Shown piece after piece: positions 32,183 to 43,465 of a stretch of DNA of 43,465 bases (position 1 is the first letter of the stretch; every line of letters starts with the position of its first letter). The DNA lies in contig JAFGRT010000066.1 in assembly GCA_016935015.1 (NCBI GenBank), forward strand, positions 1 through 43,465. The letters run 5' to 3'. A model generated the notes under the pieces. That model did no database searches and was not told the origin of the DNA. It worked only from the letters and a program-made list of their open reading frames with translations. This DNA comes from Acidobacteriota bacterium. Lineage in GTDB: Bacteria; Acidobacteriota; JAAYUB01. Position numbers and translations under genes: made by a program.

Positions 32183-32221
32183 GGTACTCTCCTCGTTTCG
32201 GCATCACATTGCAACTCTTCG

Positions 32222-32250
32222 TTAATAACGCAATGGTCGACATTTTGCAA
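32222..32250 (-). promoter_or_regulatory. Candidate promoter of speA
   Basis: On the minus strand, TTGCAA (32250-32245) and TATTAA (32227-32222) are separated by 17 bases, about 40 bases upstream of the start codon. Each box matches the consensus at four of six positions. Confidence 0.45.
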
Positions 32251-32321
32251 GATTTGTCTGTGGTTGCCCGGGCACAGGGCGACCACTCTTTTGGCGGCGG
32301 CTCAAGGCGGGTGGTTCCGGG

Positions 32322-32330
32322 TGTTATAAT
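32322..32330 (+). promoter_or_regulatory. Extended -10 promoter of the dockerin-like gene
   Basis: TGTTATAAT (TGnTATAAT) is an extended -10 element about 50 bases before the start codon at 32380. No good -35 box is seen. A second TATAAT at 32359-32364 is too close to the start codon to be the main promoter. Confidence 0.45.
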
Positions 32331-32379
32331 GATGTTTCCCCGACATGGGGCATCGGTTATAATTGAACAGAGGTGTGCC

Positions 32380-33045
32380 ATGTATTTGAAAATAGTGACT
32401 TGCTTGGTAGTGTGGCTGCTGCTCGGCGGCACGTCGTGTGCCGACGAGCAGAAGAACTGGTCGGTTTCTCTCCAGGTGGAGTCGGGCAATGATGCGGCCT
32501 GGATTTCGCCGGATCCCCTGGGGGTGAACTATCTGCGCTATTACGAGCGGGAGGATTTTACATTCAAGATTGATGTCTGGTTGTTTACCTGGATCAATGT
32601 TATCCGGGAATTCGGAACCACCTTCACCGAGCTGGCCGGACCCATACCGCCCGATGGACGGGTGATTTATGAGGATTACATCTACGTGGAGGAAAACCAG
32701 TTCACTGCCGAAGCCTTGCTGATTCTTTGGATCGACGGCGCCGGCTACGTACACCTGGAGGTGCGGGATTTCACGGCCAGCATGCGGTTGCGGGTGACCG
32801 TGACCGGCCGGCTGAAGGTGCTGCAGACGGACACGGTGTTCGGTGACATGAACGGTGACGACATGCTGAATGACGAGGATGCGGAATTGTTGCGGGCCTG
32901 GCTGGCCGAATGGCCCATGGACGCTCCGCCGGCTGCAGCGATGGATCTGGACAACGATGGTGCAGTCAGCATCAAGGATGTGCTGATGATCCAGCATTTT
33001 TTTCTGGGCAACCTGCTCACGGCCTACCAGGGTTGGAATTTCTGA
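32380..33045 (+). CDS. Secreted protein with C-terminal dockerin-like (type I) domain
   Basis: A 221-residue protein with a signal peptide (about residues 1-20) and a beta-rich middle (about 25-150) without a recognised fold. At the C-terminus (about 154-215) are two EF-hand-like loops, DMNGDDMLNDED and DLDNDGAVSIKD, each with the D-x-D/N-x-D...D spacing of a dockerin calcium loop followed by a helix (DAELLRAWLAEW, VLMIQHFFLG). The LGGTSC sequence is not a good lipobox, so soluble secretion is more likely than lipidation. The start at 32380 has AGAGGTG upstream. Dockerins bind cohesins, and a cohesin-like domain occurs at 22421-24358. Function otherwise unknown. Confidence 0.75.
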   Translation: MYLKIVTCLVVWLLLGGTSCADEQKNWSVSLQVESGNDAAWISPDPLGVNYLRYYEREDFTFKIDVWLFTWINVIREFGTTFTELAGPIPPDGRVIYEDYIYVEENQFTAEALLILWIDGAGYVHLEVRDFTASMRLRVTVTGRLKVLQTDTVFGDMNGDDMLNDEDAELLRAWLAEWPMDAPPAAAMDLDNDGAVSIKDVLMIQHFFLGNLLTAYQGWNF

Positions 33046-33066: not shown

Positions 33067-34146
33067 TCAGAGCCATTTTTTCCGCCGGAAATAACAGAGC
33101 ATAGACAGGACCACGAGGATGATTCCGCCCAGCACCGCCGGATAGCCCCATGGCCATTTCAGTTCGGGCATATACTGGAAGTTCATGCCGTACAATCCGA
33201 CAATGAAGGACAGGGGGATGAAAATGGTGGCGATGATGGTCAGCACCTTCATCACCTCGTTCATCTTCTGGCTCAGGGTGAAATAGTACAGGTCGGAAAT
33301 CCCCAAGAGCATGGTGTTGTATATCTCGAGATTGTCATGAATCTGCAGAATATGATCATACAGATCCCCGATAAACGGCATCACTTGTTCGCTGAGCAAG
33401 CCCTCTGACTCGCGTTGGAGTCGTGAGATCATCTCCCGGGTGGGCCCCATGATCCGATGCAACGCCAGCAGGTTCTTTTTAGTCTGATGAATTTCCCGCA
33501 GTTGGGCGGGATCCGTTCCTTCCAGGATGTTTTCCTCGAGTATTTGGATGCCGGTGCTGATTTCTTCCAGGACCAGAAAATAATGGTCCACCACGAGATC
33601 CATTATGGAATAGGCCAGATAGTCCACACCATAACGACGCAACCTGCCCCGTGCATTCTGCAGGCGGTCCATGACGGGTTGGAAGAGGCTGGCATCGTTC
33701 TCGCGAAAGGTCAGCAGGTAATGCTCGCCCAGAATCAGACTGATCTGTTCCACCCCGAGACGACGTGTTGCGGCGTCGAAGGTGATCATTTTCAGGACCA
33801 GGAAAATGTATTTGTTCAGATATTCGATTTTGGGCCGATGATGGGTGTTGGTGATGTCTTCCAGCACCAGGGGGTGGATATTGAAGGTCAGGCCGAGTGA
33901 TTCAATGAGACTCACGTCATGAATCCCGGTGATGTCCAGCCAGGTGACGGTGGCCGGATCGGTTGTCGGCGCGGTGTCTTCCGGTACCCGCATCTCGGAA
34001 ACACGAAAATGGTCCGGTCCGTAATCGACCATCTTCACCCGTGCGGTATGCTCCCTGGTTTCGCCGACGTAGACGATGGCGCCAGGCGAGTAACCGAGCT
34101 TATGGGCCGGGTGCTTCACCCGGGTAACGGCTGGCGTGCTTTTCAT
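33067..34146 (-). CDS. corA: Magnesium/cobalt transporter CorA
   Basis: A 359-residue CorA-type channel: an N-terminal alpha/beta cytoplasmic domain (about 60-180), a long stalk helix (about 195-290) and two C-terminal membrane helices. The selectivity motif GMN follows the first helix (FIVGLYGMNFQYMPE), and a basic C-terminus (YFRRKKWL) is present. Family members import Mg2+ (sometimes Co2+ or Ni2+) as pentamers. It converges on the dockerin-like gene with 21 bases between stops. The CNNM/CorC-like gene in this window may deal with the same ions, but the two are far apart. Confidence 0.92.
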   Translation of the reverse strand: MKSTPAVTRVKHPAHKLGYSPGAIVYVGETREHTARVKMVDYGPDHFRVSEMRVPEDTAPTTDPATVTWLDITGIHDVSLIESLGLTFNIHPLVLEDITNTHHRPKIEYLNKYIFLVLKMITFDAATRRLGVEQISLILGEHYLLTFRENDASLFQPVMDRLQNARGRLRRYGVDYLAYSIMDLVVDHYFLVLEEISTGIQILEENILEGTDPAQLREIHQTKKNLLALHRIMGPTREMISRLQRESEGLLSEQVMPFIGDLYDHILQIHDNLEIYNTMLLGISDLYYFTLSQKMNEVMKVLTIIATIFIPLSFIVGLYGMNFQYMPELKWPWGYPAVLGGIILVVLSMLCYFRRKKWL

Positions 34147-34597: not shown

Positions 34598-34670
34598 TGT
34601 GCACCGCCAGGGGACGCCATTCCAGCAGCGACACGATCCGTCTCGTTCTGACGAAAGGCGGAAGCAGGGG

Positions 34671-35789
34671 ATGATTTTCAATGGGATGGCGATGGTCGCT
34701 ATGAGTGAGATTCCGAATGATTTGATGAAACTGATTGACGGTGCTTCGGGGGAGATCCCCCAGATGTCGCGGGAAGTGGCATCCCTACGCAAGGTGGCTG
34801 CCGACTGCACGTTGGAGCTGGAAGCACGGCTGGAGGCATACGAGGACATCATGGACTCGGAAGTGGGCGATACAGCCATGGTCCGGGCTCGGAATATTGA
34901 ACGCCGGGTAGGAATGCGCCAGCTCTACCTGAAATTCGAGGGGGGCAATCCCAGTGGCACCCAGAAGGACCGGATCGCCTTCGCCCAAGCCATGGACGCT
35001 CTGCGGCGGCGGTTCGACGCCATCACCGTCGCCACCTGCGGCAATTACGGCGTGGCCGTAGCCCTGGCTGCTTCCCTGGCCGGTTTGCGCTGCATCATCT
35101 ACGTGCCGGAAAAGTACCATACCCAGCGGATCAAGGAGATGACCGATCTGGGAGCGGAAATCATCCGCTGCACGGGGGATTACGAATGCGCGGTCAACGT
35201 GTCCAGTGAATTCGCCGCCCGGGAGGAAGTGTACGACGCCAATCCGGGCGGAGCCAATACCGCTCTGCAGTTAAAGGGGTATGGTGAAATCGCCAATGAA
35301 ATTTACGACGAACTGCGTGACGCGCCGGCTGTCGTGGCTGCCCCGGTCTCAAACGGAACCACCCTTTCCGGCATTTTCAAGGGATTTCTCAGCCTGTATC
35401 GTCGGGGCAAGACGTCCCGAATGCCGCGCCTGGTGGCGGGATCCTCGTACCGGAAGAACCCCATCACCCATGCCTTCCTCAACAATTTACCGTCGTGCGG
35501 CGATCTCCGGCCGGAACGCATTCGCGAAACGAAAATCAATGAACCCCTTATCAATTGGCATTCCATCGATGGCGACTACGCCCTGCACGCGCTGCGCGAA
35601 ACCAGCGGCTGGGCGGCCGATGCTTCGGACAAGAAGATGGCCACTTTCGCTCGCCTGATACGTGATCAGGAAGGACTGAGCGTGGTGCCGGCCTCCACCG
35701 CTGGCCTGATCGCTCTGCTGGAGCGTCATCAAAGGGAGACCCTGCCCAGTGACCGTTATGTCGTTGTGTTGACGGGGAGGAAATCATGA
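34671..35789 (+). CDS. Threonine-synthase-like PLP-dependent enzyme
   Basis: An enzyme of about 372 residues in the fold-type II PLP family (threonine synthase, cysteate synthase, cysteine synthase). The N-terminal 60 residues are helical. The PLP lysine lies in FEGGNPSGTQKDRIAFAQAM. The phosphate-binding loop is ATCGNYGVAVALA rather than the usual TSGNTGA-type loop, and SNGTTLSGIFKGF is the glycine-rich segment. It is not next to thrB or hom, so housekeeping threonine synthesis is unlikely. The start at 34671 has GGAAG upstream; ATG at 34686 is an alternative. It overlaps the next gene (ATGA), implying a joint function with DUF1611, the MurL-like fusion and the dipeptide epimerase. Substrate unknown. 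Confidence 0.75.
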   Translation: MIFNGMAMVAMSEIPNDLMKLIDGASGEIPQMSREVASLRKVAADCTLELEARLEAYEDIMDSEVGDTAMVRARNIERRVGMRQLYLKFEGGNPSGTQKDRIAFAQAMDALRRRFDAITVATCGNYGVAVALAASLAGLRCIIYVPEKYHTQRIKEMTDLGAEIIRCTGDYECAVNVSSEFAAREEVYDANPGGANTALQLKGYGEIANEIYDELRDAPAVVAAPVSNGTTLSGIFKGFLSLYRRGKTSRMPRLVAGSSYRKNPITHAFLNNLPSCGDLRPERIRETKINEPLINWHSIDGDYALHALRETSGWAADASDKKMATFARLIRDQEGLSVVPASTAGLIALLERHQRETLPSDRYVVVLTGRKS

Positions 35790-36889
35790 GGCCGGATATC
35801 GAGGGGGTGGCGCTGGTTTATTGTGAAGGCGCCTTCAATACCCCCAACGGCAAAACGGCGCATGGTCTGGTCCGGTTTACTGAACGCTACCGGGTGGCGG
35901 CAGTGGTGGATTCACGCCATGCCGGGCAGGACGCCGGGCAGGTACTCGATGGACGGCCGAAAGATATCCCGATCTATGCCGCTGTGATGACGGCCCTGAC
36001 CGAATGCGCCCGCCGCAGATTGCCCTGTTCGCATCTGGTAGTGGGACTGGCCCCCGATGGCGGTCGCCTCTCGGTCACGGCCCGTGAGGATGTCAAAACA
36101 GCGCTGGCCGCCGGCCTGAACATCGATTCAGGCCTGCATGATTTCCTGGGCGAGGATGAGGAGCTGTGCCGACTGGCGGAACAAAAAGGCCTTCAAATCC
36201 GCGATATCCGCAAGCCGCCGCCGCGCGGTGAATTGCACTTTTTCAGCGGCAAGATCGAACAGGTAGACTGCCTGAAAATCGCCTTGTTGGGCACGGATTC
36301 GGCCGTAGGGAAGCGGACCACAGCCTGGCAGCTGGTCCATGCCTTGCGTCGGGTGGGTTATCCGACGGAAATGGTAGGCACCGGTCAGACCGCCTGGCTG
36401 CAGGGGGCCCGCTACGGTCTGGTGCTGGATTCACTGATCAACGATTTCGTGGCTGGTGAAATCGAGCATGCCGTTTGGTCGGCCTGGCGGGAGGCCGCGC
36501 CGGCGGCCATCGTCATCGAGGGGCAAGGCAGCCTGATGAATCCGGCCTATCCCGGCGGGTTCGAGATTCTGGCGGCCGGCCGGCCTGACATGATCATCCT
36601 GCAGCATGCTCCGGCCCGCCGGGAGTATGACGGTTTTCCCGGCTACACCATGCATCCCCTTGGCAAGCAGATCGAGGCGCTGCAAATGGTCTCCGGCAAA
36701 CCGGTCGTCGCCATTACCATCAATCATGAGGATATCGCACCGTCTGATGTGCCGCTAATTTGCCGGGCCCTCAAGCTGGTGACGGGTTTGCCGGCGTATG
36801 ACGTCCTGCTGGAGGGCGCTGATGCGTTGGCCCGGACGGTGCTGGGTCACCGGCCGCCGACGGAGGCGGGCGGGACACGCAAAAACTGA
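35786..36889 (+). CDS. DUF1611 protein, DgcN-like (D-glutamate N-acetyltransferase family)
   Basis: A 367-residue protein with the DUF1611 layout: an N-terminal Rossmann-like domain (about 1-140) and a C-terminal P-loop domain with GTDSAVGKRTT (169-179), a VIEGQGSLMNPAYPGG strand (about 247-262) and a KPVVAITINHEDI end. A characterised family member, DgcN, N-acetylates D-glutamate and works with the enolase-superfamily racemase DgcA in D-glutamate catabolism. Here an enolase-superfamily epimerase is two genes downstream, matching that pairing. It overlaps the PLP enzyme gene by 4 bases and is 16 bases from the fusion gene. Whether it acetylates D-glutamate here is inference. Confidence 0.78.
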   Translation: MRPDIEGVALVYCEGAFNTPNGKTAHGLVRFTERYRVAAVVDSRHAGQDAGQVLDGRPKDIPIYAAVMTALTECARRRLPCSHLVVGLAPDGGRLSVTAREDVKTALAAGLNIDSGLHDFLGEDEELCRLAEQKGLQIRDIRKPPPRGELHFFSGKIEQVDCLKIALLGTDSAVGKRTTAWQLVHALRRVGYPTEMVGTGQTAWLQGARYGLVLDSLINDFVAGEIEHAVWSAWREAAPAAIVIEGQGSLMNPAYPGGFEILAAGRPDMIILQHAPARREYDGFPGYTMHPLGKQIEALQMVSGKPVVAITINHEDIAPSDVPLICRALKLVTGLPAYDVLLEGADALARTVLGHRPPTEAGGTRKN

Positions 36890-36905
36890 TTCCGGGATGG
36901 CGAAC

Positions 36906-39293
36906 ATGACGGATTCGAGAGACGAACCCAAAGAAAAAAAAACAGGTACGAATGATGATCGTTGGCCGGCCCTGGGACAGTTGCAGATTTTCGAGCGCCT
37001 GGAAGTCGGTCCGGTCAGAGTGGAGCCCCGGCGGCTGATCGCTCCCTACACATTGGCGGGACCAGGGGGTGAGGACCGGATCGAACTGATCTACCGCTAC
37101 GAGGAGGATGTGTTCGATCCAGCCGCCGAGGTCGATGTCAACCTGGCCAGCATGATTGCTGCCCAGGTGGCCGTCAATTACGGATTGTTTTGCCGCACCA
37201 TGGTGTTCCGCGGCATTTTTCAGGAAACGGACCGACGGTTCCTGCGAGACATGACGGAGAATACAGCCCGTGAAATCTACGTCAAAAAAATTTTGGAGCC
37301 GAATCCGTTCCTCACCGGGGCGGCGGTACAAGTACCTCCCCTGCGTCTGGTCCGTTACAGCCACGCCCGACTGGAGTTTCCTGACGAGAGAGGCCGTAAC
37401 GGGCATGGACGCTGGCAATTGTGGCCCATGGAGTCGAGACGGTATGCCGTTCTGTCCAGCGGCGGCAAGGACAGCTTGTTGAGTTACGGCCTGCTCAACG
37501 AAATCGGGGACGAGGTGCATCCGATATTCGTCAACGAATCCGGCCGTCACTGGTATACCGCCCTGAACGCCTATCGTCACTTCCGCAATCATGTGCCCTA
37601 CACCGCCAGAGTCTGGATGAATGCCGACCGGGTCTTTCCCTGGATGCTGCGTCATATGCCGTTTATCCGCAAGGATTTCGCCACTGTACGCGCCGATGAT
37701 TATCCCATCCGGCTGTGGACGGTGGCCGTTTTCCTTTTCGGCGCCCTCCCCCTGCTGCGAAAACGGCATATCGGCAACCTGATTATCGGCGACGAATACG
37801 ACACGACGCGCCGCCTGACCAGCCACGGCATCACTCATTATGACGGCCTGTTTGATCAGAGCCGGTATTTCGATAACGCCTTGTCGCGCTATTTTTTGCG
37901 CAAGGGCTGGTCCGTCGCCCAGTTCTCCATCCTGCGCCCCCTTTCCGAACTGTTGATTCAAAAAATCTTGACCCTGCGGTACCCGGAACTTCAGAGACAC
38001 CAGGTGTCCTGCCATGCCGCCCACATGGAGGGCGACCGGGTCCGGCCCTGTGGGCGGTGTGAGAAATGTCGCCGTATCCTCGGGATGCTGGCCGCCCTGG
38101 ACGTCGATCCGACCCCCAGCGGTTATCGGGAGGAGCAAGTTCCTCCGGCCCTGGCGGATCTTGCCCGCAAAGGAATTCACCAGGAATCGGCCGGTTTTCG
38201 TCATCTGTTGCATCTGCTGGACCAGAAGGACAAGCTGGAACTGAAACCGGCGCGACGGCGAACCTTGCGGGAGCATTCCGAGGTCGTTCATCTGCGTTTC
38301 GATCCGGAGCGGTCCCCCCTCAATGGCCTGCCCCAGCATCTGCGACAACCGCTCATCGAGATCTGGCTGCCCTATACGCGTGGGTCATTACGCCGTGAGG
38401 GACGGGAGTGGCGGCCGTTCGATCCCCTGAGTGATCCGGAGTTCCGTCGGTCCTACCCCTTCGAGATCCATCCGGCCGGTTCGGCCATGATTTCCGGCGA
38501 CACCTCGCCTCCCCGGCCGCATGTCTGGGGTGAGTTGACCTGGCCGGAAGCGGAACGTCGCTTCGAGGAAGTGGATATCGCCCTACTGCCGGTCGGATCC
38601 ATTGAACAGCATGGGCCTCATCTGCCGCTGGATACGGACGCCTTCGACGCCGATTACTTGGCCCGGCGGGTGGCCGAGGCCTGCAGCGACCCCAAGCCAT
38701 TCGTTTTGCCGCTGATTCCCTACGGTGTTTCCTACGAACATAACGCCTTTAAGGGAACGATCAGCATCACCAACGACACACTGGCCCGACTGGTCTATGA
38801 AATCGGCCTCAGCCTGGCCCGCAACGGCATCCGCAAGCTCATCATTATCAACGGCCACGGCGGCAATGACCCGGCGCTGAATCACGCCGCCCAGATGATC
38901 AATCGTGACGCCCATATCTTTGTCGGTGTGGATACGGGTGAAACCAGCGATGTCGATATTTATCAGCTGATTGACACGCCCAATGATATCCACGCCGGCG
39001 AGGTGGAAACGAGTACCAGCCTGGCCGTACGCCCGCAACTGGTGCGTCAGGATCTGGCCGCAACGGCGGTGCCGGAATTTTCCAGCCGCTATCTCGATTT
39101 CACATCACGCCGGGGCGTGTCGTGGTATGCCTATACCCAGCACATGTCCCCCAGCGGCGTGTTGGGCGATCCCTCGCGGGCCAGTGCCGAAAAGGGACAC
39201 AAGATCTGGCAGATCATGGTGGCTCACCTGGTCGCCCTGGTGGAGGATTTAAAAAACATGACCCTCGAGGAAATTTATCAGCGACGGATGTGA
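36906..39293 (+). CDS. Fusion: MurL-like ATP-pyrophosphatase domain + creatininase-type amidohydrolase
   Basis: A 795-residue two-domain protein. Residues about 170-395 form a PP-loop ATP-pyrophosphatase: the AMP/PPi-forming motif VLSSGGKDS (about 179-187), a [10 protein letters not shown] segment, [13 protein letters not shown], and a zinc-type cluster C369, C382, C385, C388 (PCGRCEKC). This series resembles MurL, the ATP-dependent epimerase of UDP-MurNAc-L-Ala-L-Glu, and more distantly QueC. Residues about 545-795 form a creatininase-family metal amidohydrolase with [19 protein letters not shown] (E567, H569, D578), IIINGHGGN and [10 protein letters not shown], so the metal site looks intact. 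The linker (about 400-540) is unassigned. Starts at ATG 36897 and 36906 are both possible; 36906 has GGGAT upstream. The next gene starts 7 bases after its stop. The substrate is unknown. Confidence 0.8.
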
Positions 39294-39300
39294 GGCGGCC

Positions 39301-40365
39301 ATGAGAATTTCCCGGCTTGAGATCTGGCCGATGAAGATTCCACTGCGCGAGTCCTATGCCATCGCCTACGAGACGGTGACGGCGGCGGATATGGTGTTCC
39401 TACGGCTGGAAACCGGTGCCGGTGTGACCGGTTTTGGTTGTGCCGCGCCGGATGCGCAGGTCACCGGCGAGACCATGGAAACTGTGCTGCGGGTGGGCGA
39501 AGAGGCCATCCGCCCGCAGCTGAAAGGCGCGGATCCGCTACGCGTTGCCTTCCAGCTGGAAAAGCTCCGCAAACCGCTGCTTAATCAGCCGGCGGCTATG
39601 GCCATGGTGGACATGGCGCTGCACGACATCCTCGGAAAAAAGGCGGGCTTGCCCTTGTACCGCTTGCTAGGCGGATTTCGGGAGCGGATGAAGACCAGCA
39701 TCACCATCGGTATCCTGCCGCTTGCGGAGACAGTGGCGCGGGCCCGGCAGTTCGTTCGTCAGGGATTTAAGGCACTCAAAATCAAAGGCGGGCGGGACGT
39801 ATCGGCGGACGTTGAACGGGTGATCCGGGTGCGGGAGGCGGTGGGTCAAGGCGTCGAATTGCGCTTCGACGCCAATCAGGGCTACAACCTGGAAAGTTCG
39901 CTGCATTTCGTCCGGGCGACCCGGTCCGCGCGTGTGGAATTGCTGGAACAGCCTACACCCCGCCATGAGACGGCCCTGCTGGGACAGGTCTGCCGGGGCG
40001 CCGACATCCCCATCATGGCCGACGAAAGTCTGATGAACCTGCGGGACGCCTTTCGACTGGCCCGGCGGGAGCTGGCGGATATGGTCAATGTGAAGCTGAT
40101 GAAGGTGGGTGGGATTGCCGAAGCGATCCAGATCAACGGGGTGGCCCGGGCGGCCGGTCTCGAGGTTATGGTGGGCTGCATGGATGAGGCGGCGCTGGGG
40201 ATTGCCGCCGGCCTCCATTTTGCCTTGGCCCGGCCCAATGTCCTGTATGCCGATCTGGACGGGCACTTTGACCTCCTAAACGATCCGTCCGCCGGAGCCG
40301 TGATCCTGAAGGACGGTATTCTCTATCCCACCGGCAAGCCGGGGCTGGGTTTCGATCTGGCCTGA
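39301..40365 (+). CDS. Enolase-superfamily dipeptide epimerase (Ala-Glu epimerase/DgcA-like)
   Basis: A 354-residue (beta/alpha)7-beta barrel enzyme of the muconate-lactonising subgroup. The two-base acid/base set is complete: KxK at K160/K162 (ALKIKGG), metal ligands D190 (RFDANQGY), E216 (LLEQP) and D241 (MADES), and the opposite Lys at K265 or K268 ([10 protein letters not shown]). The D-x-D motif at D318/D320 (YADLDG) is the element that binds the alpha-ammonium group of dipeptides in Ala-Glu epimerases, favouring an L-Ala-D/L-Glu-type dipeptide over an N-acyl amino acid. The other candidate is DgcA (N-acetyl-glutamate racemase), as a DUF1611 protein is present. It is the last gene of the cluster. 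Confidence 0.85.
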
Positions 40366-41357: not shown

Positions 41358-42773
41358 ATGCATATCACCACATTCGAATTCCTGTTTTACTGGTTGCTGG
41401 TGCTGGTCGTTTACTACTTCCTGCCCCGACGGGCGCAGAATGTCCTATTGCTGGCCGCCTCCGTCCTGTTTTACGGTACCTGGTCATGGCGGTTCGTGGG
41501 AGTTCTGGCCATATTGACAATGGCCAATTTCTTTTGGGCCCGCCTGTTACGCAAAGGACAGGCACGCATCCCCTGGCGTCTGTGGCTGGGTATTGGCGGG
41601 AATGTCGGCACGCTGGTAGTGTTCAAGTATGCCGATTTTTACGTGCCCGAACTGCTGCAGCTGCTGGGCGGCGGAGCAACGCTGGAATGGGTGCTGAAGA
41701 TCGTGCTGCCCGTCGGCCTCTCGTACCGGATACTGGAAAATATTTCCTACCTGGTGGATGTGTATCGTGGGCAGATCCCCGCCAGCCGCAATCTGGTGGA
41801 TTTCGGCCTGTTTTCCTTTTACGCCCTGAAATTGCTGTCCGGACCCATCGAGCGGGCGCGCTCCTTTCTGAATCGCCTGGCCGAGCCGCGCCTGGTGGAC
41901 AACGATGTCATCGCCCGCAGTTTTACGTTGCTGGTCATCGGCGCTTTTCGCAAGCTGGTCATCGCCGATACCCTGGCCGGCGTCATCCCCCCGCTGATGT
42001 TCGAATCCCCCTCCGCCTACGGCTCGTGGGAACTGGTGATGGGATTGCTGATCTACGGCTTCATGCTCTACAACAATTTCGCCGGTTACACCGACATGAT
42101 GCGGGGCTTGAGCGGCTTCTTTGGTTTGCCGCTGTCCAGCAATTTCTTTTGTCCCTTCTTCTCCCGAAACATGACGGAAATCTGGACCCGCTGGCACACC
42201 ACCCTCGGCTTGTGGCTGCGGGATTACATCTATCTGCCGCTGAGCCGCGCCTTTTTGCGCCGCAACCCCAATCCGCGGCGCTGGGCCAACGTGGTGGTGC
42301 CGCCCATGGCGGCCATGCTGGTCAGCGGCCTGTGGCACGGGCTCAGCTGGAATCTGGTCTGCTGGGGGGCCCTCATCGGATTCTTTCTGGTGATCAGCCG
42401 TTTGCCTTCCCTGTGGCGTCCGCTGATGCCGCCGGACCGGCAGCCCATGTGGCGCCAGCTGCTGGGGATGGGCGCCGTGGCGGTGGCCATGGCCTTCTCG
42501 CTGGTCCTCTTTATTATGGACTTCAATACCGCGGCCGACTTCTACGAACGGCTGTTTTTCTGGACCAAATGGGTCACCCCGCCGCCGCTGGCGGTTTTTG
42601 GGGTGGCGCTGTCCCTGGGGCTGGATATCTGTCAGTACGTGCGGCGGGATGAAGTGATCTTTTTGCGCTGGCCACGCTGGCTGCAGGCGGTGCTCCTGGC
42701 GGCGGCCCTCCTGGCCATCTTTCTGGCCACGCGGCTGAAACCGGCCGAGCCGTTCATCTACCAGGGATTCTGA
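41358..42773 (+). CDS. MBOAT-family membrane-bound O-acyltransferase (AlgI-like)
   Basis: A 471-residue polytopic protein with at least eight hydrophobic segments. It has the MBOAT signatures WTRWHTTLGLWLRDYIYLPLS (H280 region) and SGLWHGLSWN with the likely catalytic His at about 327. Family members such as AlgI, DltB and PatA move acyl groups across or onto surface polymers. Here an acyl carrier protein gene follows at 10 bases and a fatty-acyl-AMP ligase after that, so the acyl donor is probably loaded on the ACP. The N-terminal FEFLFYWLLVLVVYYFLP opening is typical of AlgI-like proteins. The acyl acceptor is not visible. Confidence 0.88.
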   Translation: MHITTFEFLFYWLLVLVVYYFLPRRAQNVLLLAASVLFYGTWSWRFVGVLAILTMANFFWARLLRKGQARIPWRLWLGIGGNVGTLVVFKYADFYVPELLQLLGGGATLEWVLKIVLPVGLSYRILENISYLVDVYRGQIPASRNLVDFGLFSFYALKLLSGPIERARSFLNRLAEPRLVDNDVIARSFTLLVIGAFRKLVIADTLAGVIPPLMFESPSAYGSWELVMGLLIYGFMLYNNFAGYTDMMRGLSGFFGLPLSSNFFCPFFSRNMTEIWTRWHTTLGLWLRDYIYLPLSRAFLRRNPNPRRWANVVVPPMAAMLVSGLWHGLSWNLVCWGALIGFFLVISRLPSLWRPLMPPDRQPMWRQLLGMGAVAVAMAFSLVLFIMDFNTAADFYERLFFWTKWVTPPPLAVFGVALSLGLDICQYVRRDEVIFLRWPRWLQAVLLAAALLAIFLATRLKPAEPFIYQGF

Positions 42774-42783
42774 GGGAGGCATC

Positions 42784-43050
42784 ATGAACCGGGCGGAGAT
42801 CATCGATGGATTGCGCGACTTTATTCGTACGGAGTTGCTGGGTGAACCGGATGCCGAACTGGGCGTGGACGAACCGCTCATCACCAGCGGCCGCATCGAT
42901 TCCTTCTCTATCGCCCAGGTGGCGGTCTTCGTGGAGACGGCGTTTGGCGTGTACGTTCCCGACAACGAGCTGGTGGTGGACAACGCCGACACGCTGGCCC
43001 AGATGGCCGACCTGGTGCTGCGTTATGCCGCGGACGATGCCACGGACTGA
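42784..43050 (+). CDS. Acyl carrier protein
   Basis: An 88-residue acidic four-helix protein. The phosphopantetheine attachment site is the Ser in GRIDSFSI (DSF replacing the common DSL), about residue 40. Length and charge fit a dedicated ACP of the DltC or FAAL-associated type rather than the housekeeping AcpP. It starts at 42784 after GAGGGAGG and lies between the MBOAT and the acyl-AMP ligase genes, which probably acylate it and take acyl groups from it. Confidence 0.88.
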   Translation: MNRAEIIDGLRDFIRTELLGEPDAELGVDEPLITSGRIDSFSIAQVAVFVETAFGVYVPDNELVVDNADTLAQMADLVLRYAADDATD

Positions 43051-43106
43051 TGGGATGAGTCGTCCGGGCGATAAAGAATGCGCCAAAGGGCAAGGAATTC
43101 CGGAAA

Positions 43107-43465
43107 ATGAGCAAGCGACCTCAACGCGACAATCTGGTGGATACGGCGCGGGACTGGGCCCAGGCGGCGCCGGACCGGACGGTTTATATCTGTCTCGATG
43201 AAAATCTCGCTGAATCGGACCGGCTGACCTTCGGGCAGCTGGATGCCCGGGCCCGGAGTTTGGCCGCGGCCCTGCAATGCCGCTATACGCGGGGCGAACG
43301 GGTGCTGTTGCTGCAGTCGCACGGCCTCGATTTCATCATCGCCCTGTACGGCTGCATGTACGCCGGACTGATCGCCGTGCCCTGCCCGGCGCCACAGCTG
43401 AACCGCCCCCTCGACCGCCTGCAGGCTGTCGCCCGGGACGCCACCGCCACGGCGGCCTTCGTGGA
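43107..43465 (+). CDS. Fatty-acyl-AMP ligase (FAAL-like), N-terminal part
   Basis: The ATG at 43107 opens a frame that runs off the right edge. The visible 119 residues match the start of the adenylate-forming FAAL family: LTFGQLDARARSLAAALQ, GERVLLLQSHGLDFIIALYG and CMYAGLIAVPCPAPQ, the last being the FAAL-type motif after the A1 region. FAALs activate a fatty acid as acyl-AMP and load it on an ACP without forming acyl-CoA. The preceding ACP gene is the probable partner. The catalytic and C-terminal domains are outside the window, so a polyketide or NRPS hybrid further right remains possible. Confidence 0.85.
   Translation, partial: MSKRPQRDNLVDTARDWAQAAPDRTVYICLDENLAESDRLTFGQLDARARSLAAALQCRYTRGERVLLLQSHGLDFIIALYGCMYAGLIAVPCPAPQLNRPLDRLQAVARDATATAAFV

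Follow-up and report, generated by a model that had tools for sequence, protein, structure and literature searches.

MurL, which acts in peptidoglycan synthesis, is essentially the sole enzyme family known for ATP-dependent peptide epimerisation; it consumes one ATP with formation of AMP, works from L to D only, and is hypothesised to proceed through an alpha-carboxylate adenylate (PMC8788868; PMC5808125). Among the other described systems close to the locus reported here, MftE, homologous to creatininase, acts by cutting a peptide (PMC10885120), and the DgcN-DgcA pathway of D-glutamate pairs the DUF1611 family with the enolase superfamily (PMC10845958). The window, by which we mean the whole stretch of 43,465 nucleotides analysed (Acidobacteriota bacterium, contig JAFGRT010000066.1), contains a four-gene operon with five activities: a threonine-synthase-like PLP enzyme, a DUF1611 protein, a fusion of a MurL-like PP-loop domain with a creatininase domain (two activities), and a dipeptide epimerase. 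No description of this operon, of a creatininase/DUF1611/PP-loop/epimerase combination, or of a QueC-creatininase cluster was found in the literature open to searching. Our preferred reading, which we put forward tentatively, is that the fusion protein is a bifunctional enzyme and that the operon acts on a small peptide-like metabolite, with a MurL-like activation followed or accompanied nearby by a creatininase-type cleavage.

The fusion gene (36906-39293, + strand), recognised by translation, domain searches and homologues, is free of stop codons over 795 codons and encodes a protein of 795 aa, as the initial annotation had it. The frame is open further 5', to an ATG at 36798 inside the DUF1611 gene, and because of this overlap a start at 36897 or 36906 is more likely.

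The N-terminal region (residues ~1-505, 36906-38420, + strand) was assigned to the MurL/QueC clan of PP-loop proteins with hhalign, AlphaFold, Foldseek and the lengths of split genes. The domain search that had been proposed for this architecture recovered the creatininase half (PF02633, see below), and in the N-terminal half none of the Pfam families passed the threshold, the sole hits below it being QueC (E 0.036, 14 bits against a gathering score of 22) and DUF6395 (E 0.028). The PP-loop motif SSGGKDS (residues 184-190, 37455-37475, + strand) is near-invariant in 83 homologues, and the Cys4 site SC(369)H...PC(382)GRC(385)EKC(388) (38010-38069, + strand), a pattern also present in the MurL and QueC profiles, is invariant in 83/83. 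The residues G186, G187, K188, S190, C369, C382, C385 and C388 are all invariant in this set, which confirms the PP-loop and the cysteine cluster noticed at first, with zinc as the presumed metal. The domain thus has the SGGxDS loop, the Rossmann-like fold and the Cys4 site, presumably for zinc, of the PP-loop ATP pyrophosphatases of the QueC clan, and to judge from its sequence it is a member of these enzymes related to MurL.

The kinship with MurL was seen in two types of comparison. The NCBIfam MurL model matches 40/40 aligned members (best E 7.7e-9, window E 1.2e-5), and no other NCBIfam family matches these 40 N-domains; the scores of 22-24 bits are far under the curated cut-off of 700, so that the N-domain is a distant relative of MurL. 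Comparison by hhalign with a profile built from MurL-family proteins of another phylum gave a probability of 98.4 and an E-value of 4.1e-15 across the PP-loop and Cys4 region, against a probability of 48 and an E-value of 1.8e-4 for QueC, while MurL and QueC compared in the same way gave 89.9 and 1.7e-6 (these E-values are from single pairwise comparisons, uncorrected for database search). The identity with MurL is ~24% over 181 aligned columns. The N-domain family and MurL, the catalytic residues of which are not known, have in common G186, G187, K188, D189, S190, P267, E297, H311, S341 and S368, as well as the Cys4 site, K387 and a P402xxC405 motif, so the likeness covers the GGKDS loop, the four cysteines and the conserved Glu, His, Ser and PxxC positions. 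Residue 405, which aligns with the Cys of PFEC in MurL, is Cys in 76/83 members and another residue in 7/83; the window copy has S405 (38118-38120) in place of the conserved Cys.

The AlphaFold model of the N-domain (mean pLDDT 90.5) has QatC, QueC and Cap9 as its best solved neighbours in Foldseek, with a TM-score for QueC of 0.69-0.73 on QueC length, which indicates a QueC-type PP-loop fold; the Foldseek search returned no solved MurL structure to compete with these matches. The N-domain shares with QueC the fold and the Cys4 site, whereas the profile similarity is weaker and the N-domain protein is larger, having additional segments at both termini. A separate QueC is also encoded in the window genome, on contig C180. 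The kinship with MurL favours inversion at an alpha-carbon, and the kinship with QueC allows amide formation.

The C-terminal domain (residues 541-795, 38526-39290, + strand) is related over its whole length to PF02633, to the MftE model TIGR03964 and to solved creatininases. The PF02633 match covers residues 543-779 with an E-value of 1.8e-72 and 244 bits, well over the gathering score of 31.3, and the solved creatininases match at E about 1e-17. The best NCBIfam model is MftE, with 161 bits, just under the cut-off of 172, and the true creatininase model TIGR04448 reaches 108 bits against a cut-off of 235. The domain is thus assigned by its sequence to the creatininase family, with MftE as its nearest relative; the E, H, D, H metal residues are shared with this family, and the difference from MftE lies in the score and in the operon, as no mycofactocin genes were present among the window neighbours or the recurrent flanking families. 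The metal-site segment E567-Q-H569-...-D578 (38604-38639, + strand) is present in 62/63 homologues with a creatininase domain, that is, E567, H569 and D578 occur in every homologue readable there, the remaining one having an X, and H651 is kept in 61/61. The metal site, described at first as an intact creatininase site, is therefore conserved in these residues, but it differs from that of a true creatininase, since the domain reads NGHGGN, as does 3no4, where the solved true creatininase reads NGHYEN. The Glu of NGHYEN is, we take it, the fifth metal ligand in true creatininase, and its replacement makes creatinine an unlikely substrate. An ordinary creatininase was rejected, as neither the score nor this motif fits.

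In the preferred reading of a bifunctional enzyme, the N-domain would adenylate the carboxylate of a substrate such as a dipeptide or an N-acyl amino acid with ATP, releasing PPi, as proposed for MurL, and this adenylation would most likely serve the inversion of the adjacent alpha-carbon, as in MurL. The two-metal creatininase domain would then hydrolyse an amide linkage in this metabolite, in the next or a neighbouring step, comparable to the action of MftE on a peptide. What the analysis establishes are the identities of the domains, their conserved active-site residues, the conservation of the operon and the co-occurrence of its genes; we infer adenylation, inversion and amide hydrolysis, and likewise the order of the steps, the substrate, the direction and any channelling. 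The proposal that activation is followed by hydrolysis is a reasonable one; against an obligatory covalent form of the channelling speak the split versions described below; the cyclised glutamyl amide suggested as the intermediate is one possibility among several.

A somewhat less likely alternative casts the N-domain as a synthetase of amides or peptides akin to QueC, in which the adenylated carboxylate would be passed to ammonia or an amine, and the creatininase domain would hydrolyse an amide in a later processing role or an opposing, proofreading one. The rank of QueC, QatC and Cap9 in Foldseek and the common Cys4 site agree with it, as does a loop of the N-domain, HYDGLxDQSR, that aligns with DYSGYPDCR of QueC. 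Fusions of amide-making and amide-cutting enzymes also exist in general, as in glutathionylspermidine synthetase/amidase. Against this reading, the QueC profile similarity is much weaker than that to MurL, and the operon holds no glutaminase or other source of ammonia.

The distribution of the fusion was followed across genomes. Among 60 related genomes, two further fusions were found, at 62 and 58% identity, the latter truncated by the end of its contig, and within 297 genomes of the phylum a close N-domain occurs only in the window genome and in these two. An N-domain alignment scanned against 84,980 species genomes yielded 112 relatives, of which 80 loci, of 50-66% identity, were kept; together with the two earlier finds, these give 82 genomes. 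The two activities are joined in a single frame in 61 of the 82, the fused homologues having 53-67% identity. The split version asked for as a check by the initial annotation, with PP-loop and creatininase as neighbouring genes, is found in 16 Bacteroidota (Maribacter, Kordia, Zeaxanthinibacter, Lewinella and others), where the genes have ~505 (501-511 aa) and ~266 codons and mostly overlap by 4-20 bases or lie at most 2 bases apart, with gaps of 111 and 184 bases in two cases. Three other loci have two adjacent or overlapping frames, and one ends at a contig edge. Separate, non-neighbouring genes, which had been named as a sign of an incidental fusion, occur once in about 82 genomes, in Phycisphaerales bin470 (L048), where the PP-loop gene stands alone and a creatininase of 67% identity lies ~0.5 Mb away. 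The fusion is thus real and recurrent. A sequencing or assembly artefact is ruled out by the dozens of independent fusions in other genomes, and a frame error joining two frames, the other doubt raised at the outset, is excluded by the same fused homologues and by the split ones, which mostly overlap.

In a tree of the N-domain, with a midpoint root only, the split clade of Bacteroidota is nested within fused lineages with a support of 97, so that fission is the simpler reading for this group. The adjacent split genes and the unlinked pair of the Phycisphaerales genome are also what would be expected if the two domains served different, non-consecutive steps within one pathway and had been fused solely for co-expression. 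The model of the whole protein (pTM 0.73) is compatible with this, because it contains a low-confidence, disordered linker at model residues 499-512 and does not fix the orientation of the domains. We consider it rather less likely than the two readings above nonetheless, since some 60 genomes from many phyla have kept the fusion and the split clade lies within fused ones, from which proximity appears to have been selected. The same split versions argue against an obligatory covalent channelling, on which the model, leaving the domain orientation open, is silent; within the bifunctional reading, what the fusion provides is probably 1:1 expression and closeness of the two domains, more than an obligate channel.

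The first gene of the operon (34599-35789, + strand) encodes a threonine-synthase-like PLP enzyme of subfamily PRK06381 (PALP E 7.9e-54; NF004996 416 bits, cut-off 266). Its homology starts at about residue 77, and its true start is uncertain. It retains the Lys of GTQKDR, and Q224 and Y228 are invariant across its family, whereas the segment NPxRxxGQKT of four solved threonine synthases is absent, the window reading QLKGYGE, so that ordinary threonine synthase activity is not to be expected, and a true threonine synthase was rejected for this gene. Through PLP beta/gamma chemistry it would produce or alter an amino acid used as a building block. The next gene, which overlaps it by 4 nt, encodes a DUF1611 protein of the DgcN-like N-acyltransferase/P-loop family (35786-36889, + strand; PF07755 E 1.4e-58, PF17396 E 2e-24), which may acylate an amine.

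The gene after the fusion (39301-40365, + strand) encodes an enolase-superfamily dipeptide epimerase (PF13378 E 2.8e-51; dipeptide epimerases 3jva, 3rit and 1jpm, E about 1e-69), which would epimerise a dipeptide. The complete residue set of the dipeptide epimerases is conserved (K160, K162, D190, E216, D241, K265, D318, D320), comprising the KxK, D, E, D, K catalytic set and the D318xD320 motif. The likeness to 3jva, 3rit and 1jpm in these Lys, Asp and Glu residues and the DxD motif does not extend to E24, which is invariant in the family. The Ala-Glu epimerase presumably has Arg24 at the matching position, binding the side chain of glutamate, and a dipeptide other than Ala-Glu, with a cationic or amide side chain, may thus be expected. 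As in DgcN-DgcA, a DUF1611 protein and an enolase-superfamily enzyme stand in one operon; in contrast to that pathway, both window proteins are far under the cut-offs (136 bits against 480 for DgcN, NF041892; 156 against 400 for DgcA), and the operon has three additional activities. A paper on penicillin epimerase and another on aminoacyl-tRNA-synthetase-like peptide enzymes turned out to be unrelated.

Conservation of the operon was counted at the 53 loci where the N-domain gene is flanked by 2.6 kb or more in both directions. Of these, 49 have the PLP enzyme, 47 the DUF1611 protein, 52 the creatininase and 44 the epimerase, and all five activities occur together at 42. The operon is spread over ~14 named phyla, taken from the titles of the records, which include Bacteroidota, Acidobacteriota, Thermodesulfobacteriota, Gemmatimonadota, Myxococcota, Planctomycetota and Latescibacterota, and further Ignavibacteriota, Zixiibacteriota, Fibrobacterota, Calditrichota, Krumholzibacteriota, Rhodothermota and Pseudomonadota. 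The PRK06381 subfamily is above cut-off at exactly one place per genome in 14 operon-bearing genomes, and among the 60 relatives only in the three that carry the fusion, a perfect match that random placement would give with a chance of ~1 in 34,000. Genomes without a local DUF1611 or epimerase gene have related genes elsewhere; in two of them (G544, G546) these genes form a neighbouring pair, ~40% identical to those of the window. This strong conservation, with the PLP partner strictly co-inherited, means that the operon probably makes or processes one specific compound. It is possible, although we hold this with somewhat more reserve than the bifunctional reading itself, that the operon is an undescribed pathway of more than 12 phyla for a non-canonical D-residue or a dipeptide-like metabolite (a compatible solute or a secreted signal, for instance), and that an ATP-dependent epimerase or ligase of MurL type is physically linked in it with a peptidase of creatininase type. 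The N-domains are a large sister family of MurL outside its peptidoglycan role, tied to a hydrolase and to another kind of peptide epimerase. Given the co-occurrence pattern and the hosts available in culture (Maribacter, Kordia, Zeaxanthinibacter, Desulfosarcina), the question of the product can be tested directly.

The homology of the N-domain to MurL would also fit a supply of D-glutamate for peptidoglycan, which we regard as very improbable. The setting of MurL, with MurI absent and MurD2 beside murL, is not that of the window genome, where MurI is clear (E 3.5e-74); MurI is also over cut-off in 8/12 operon-bearing genomes, and since it is present in most of those tested a cell-wall role is unlikely and is largely refuted. 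The protein moreover differs from MurL in its low model score (24 bits against 700), in its fusion to a creatininase and in not adjoining a MurD-type gene, none of which was found among the window's neighbours or the recurrent neighbours of the operon. Phage defence by a QueC-like protein, suggested by QatC and Cap9 as top structural neighbours, is more improbable still and is rejected, as no PADLOC model meaningfully matched the fusion or its partners, which are metabolic enzymes in an operon conserved at 53-67% identity across many phyla.

Two groups of Bacteroidota (L100, L102, L104, L105; and L093, L095, L098, L103, L106) also show conservation of the regions flanking the operon, which suggests vertical inheritance within each group. 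The flanks are variable overall, with some recurrent genes. A CorA-type Mg2+/Co2+ transporter gene adjoins the operon in seven loci from various phyla, on the minus strand at 33067-34146 in the window and also at L021, L041, L044, L051, L063 and L101. Uncharacterised membrane proteins of DUF5698 type (L032, L039, L042, L048, L050, L051, L064, L096) or YitT type (L035, L036, L040, L052, L060), most of them with DUF2179, are near the operon in ~13 loci, and could possibly be a transporter of its product. The recurrence of ion-transport genes near the operon led us to consider an osmolyte or solute role; together with that of the DUF2179-type membrane genes it is circumstantial evidence, which hints at such a role.

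Genes for a RimK-like ATP-grasp ligase, a RimB-type protease and an M14-type deacylase are found near the operon at two loci (L021, 4058-6614; L070, 2477-5528), and a RimB-type protease alone at a third (L040, 16602-17132). In the window, a protein that may be secreted and carries a dockerin domain at its C-terminus (E 1.5e-5) is encoded upstream of the operon at 32209-33045 (+ strand). Downstream, the region 41358-43465 (+ strand) encodes a DltB-like MBOAT acyltransferase and, after it, has an open frame at 43107, the sequence of which is similar to an AMP-dependent acyl ligase.
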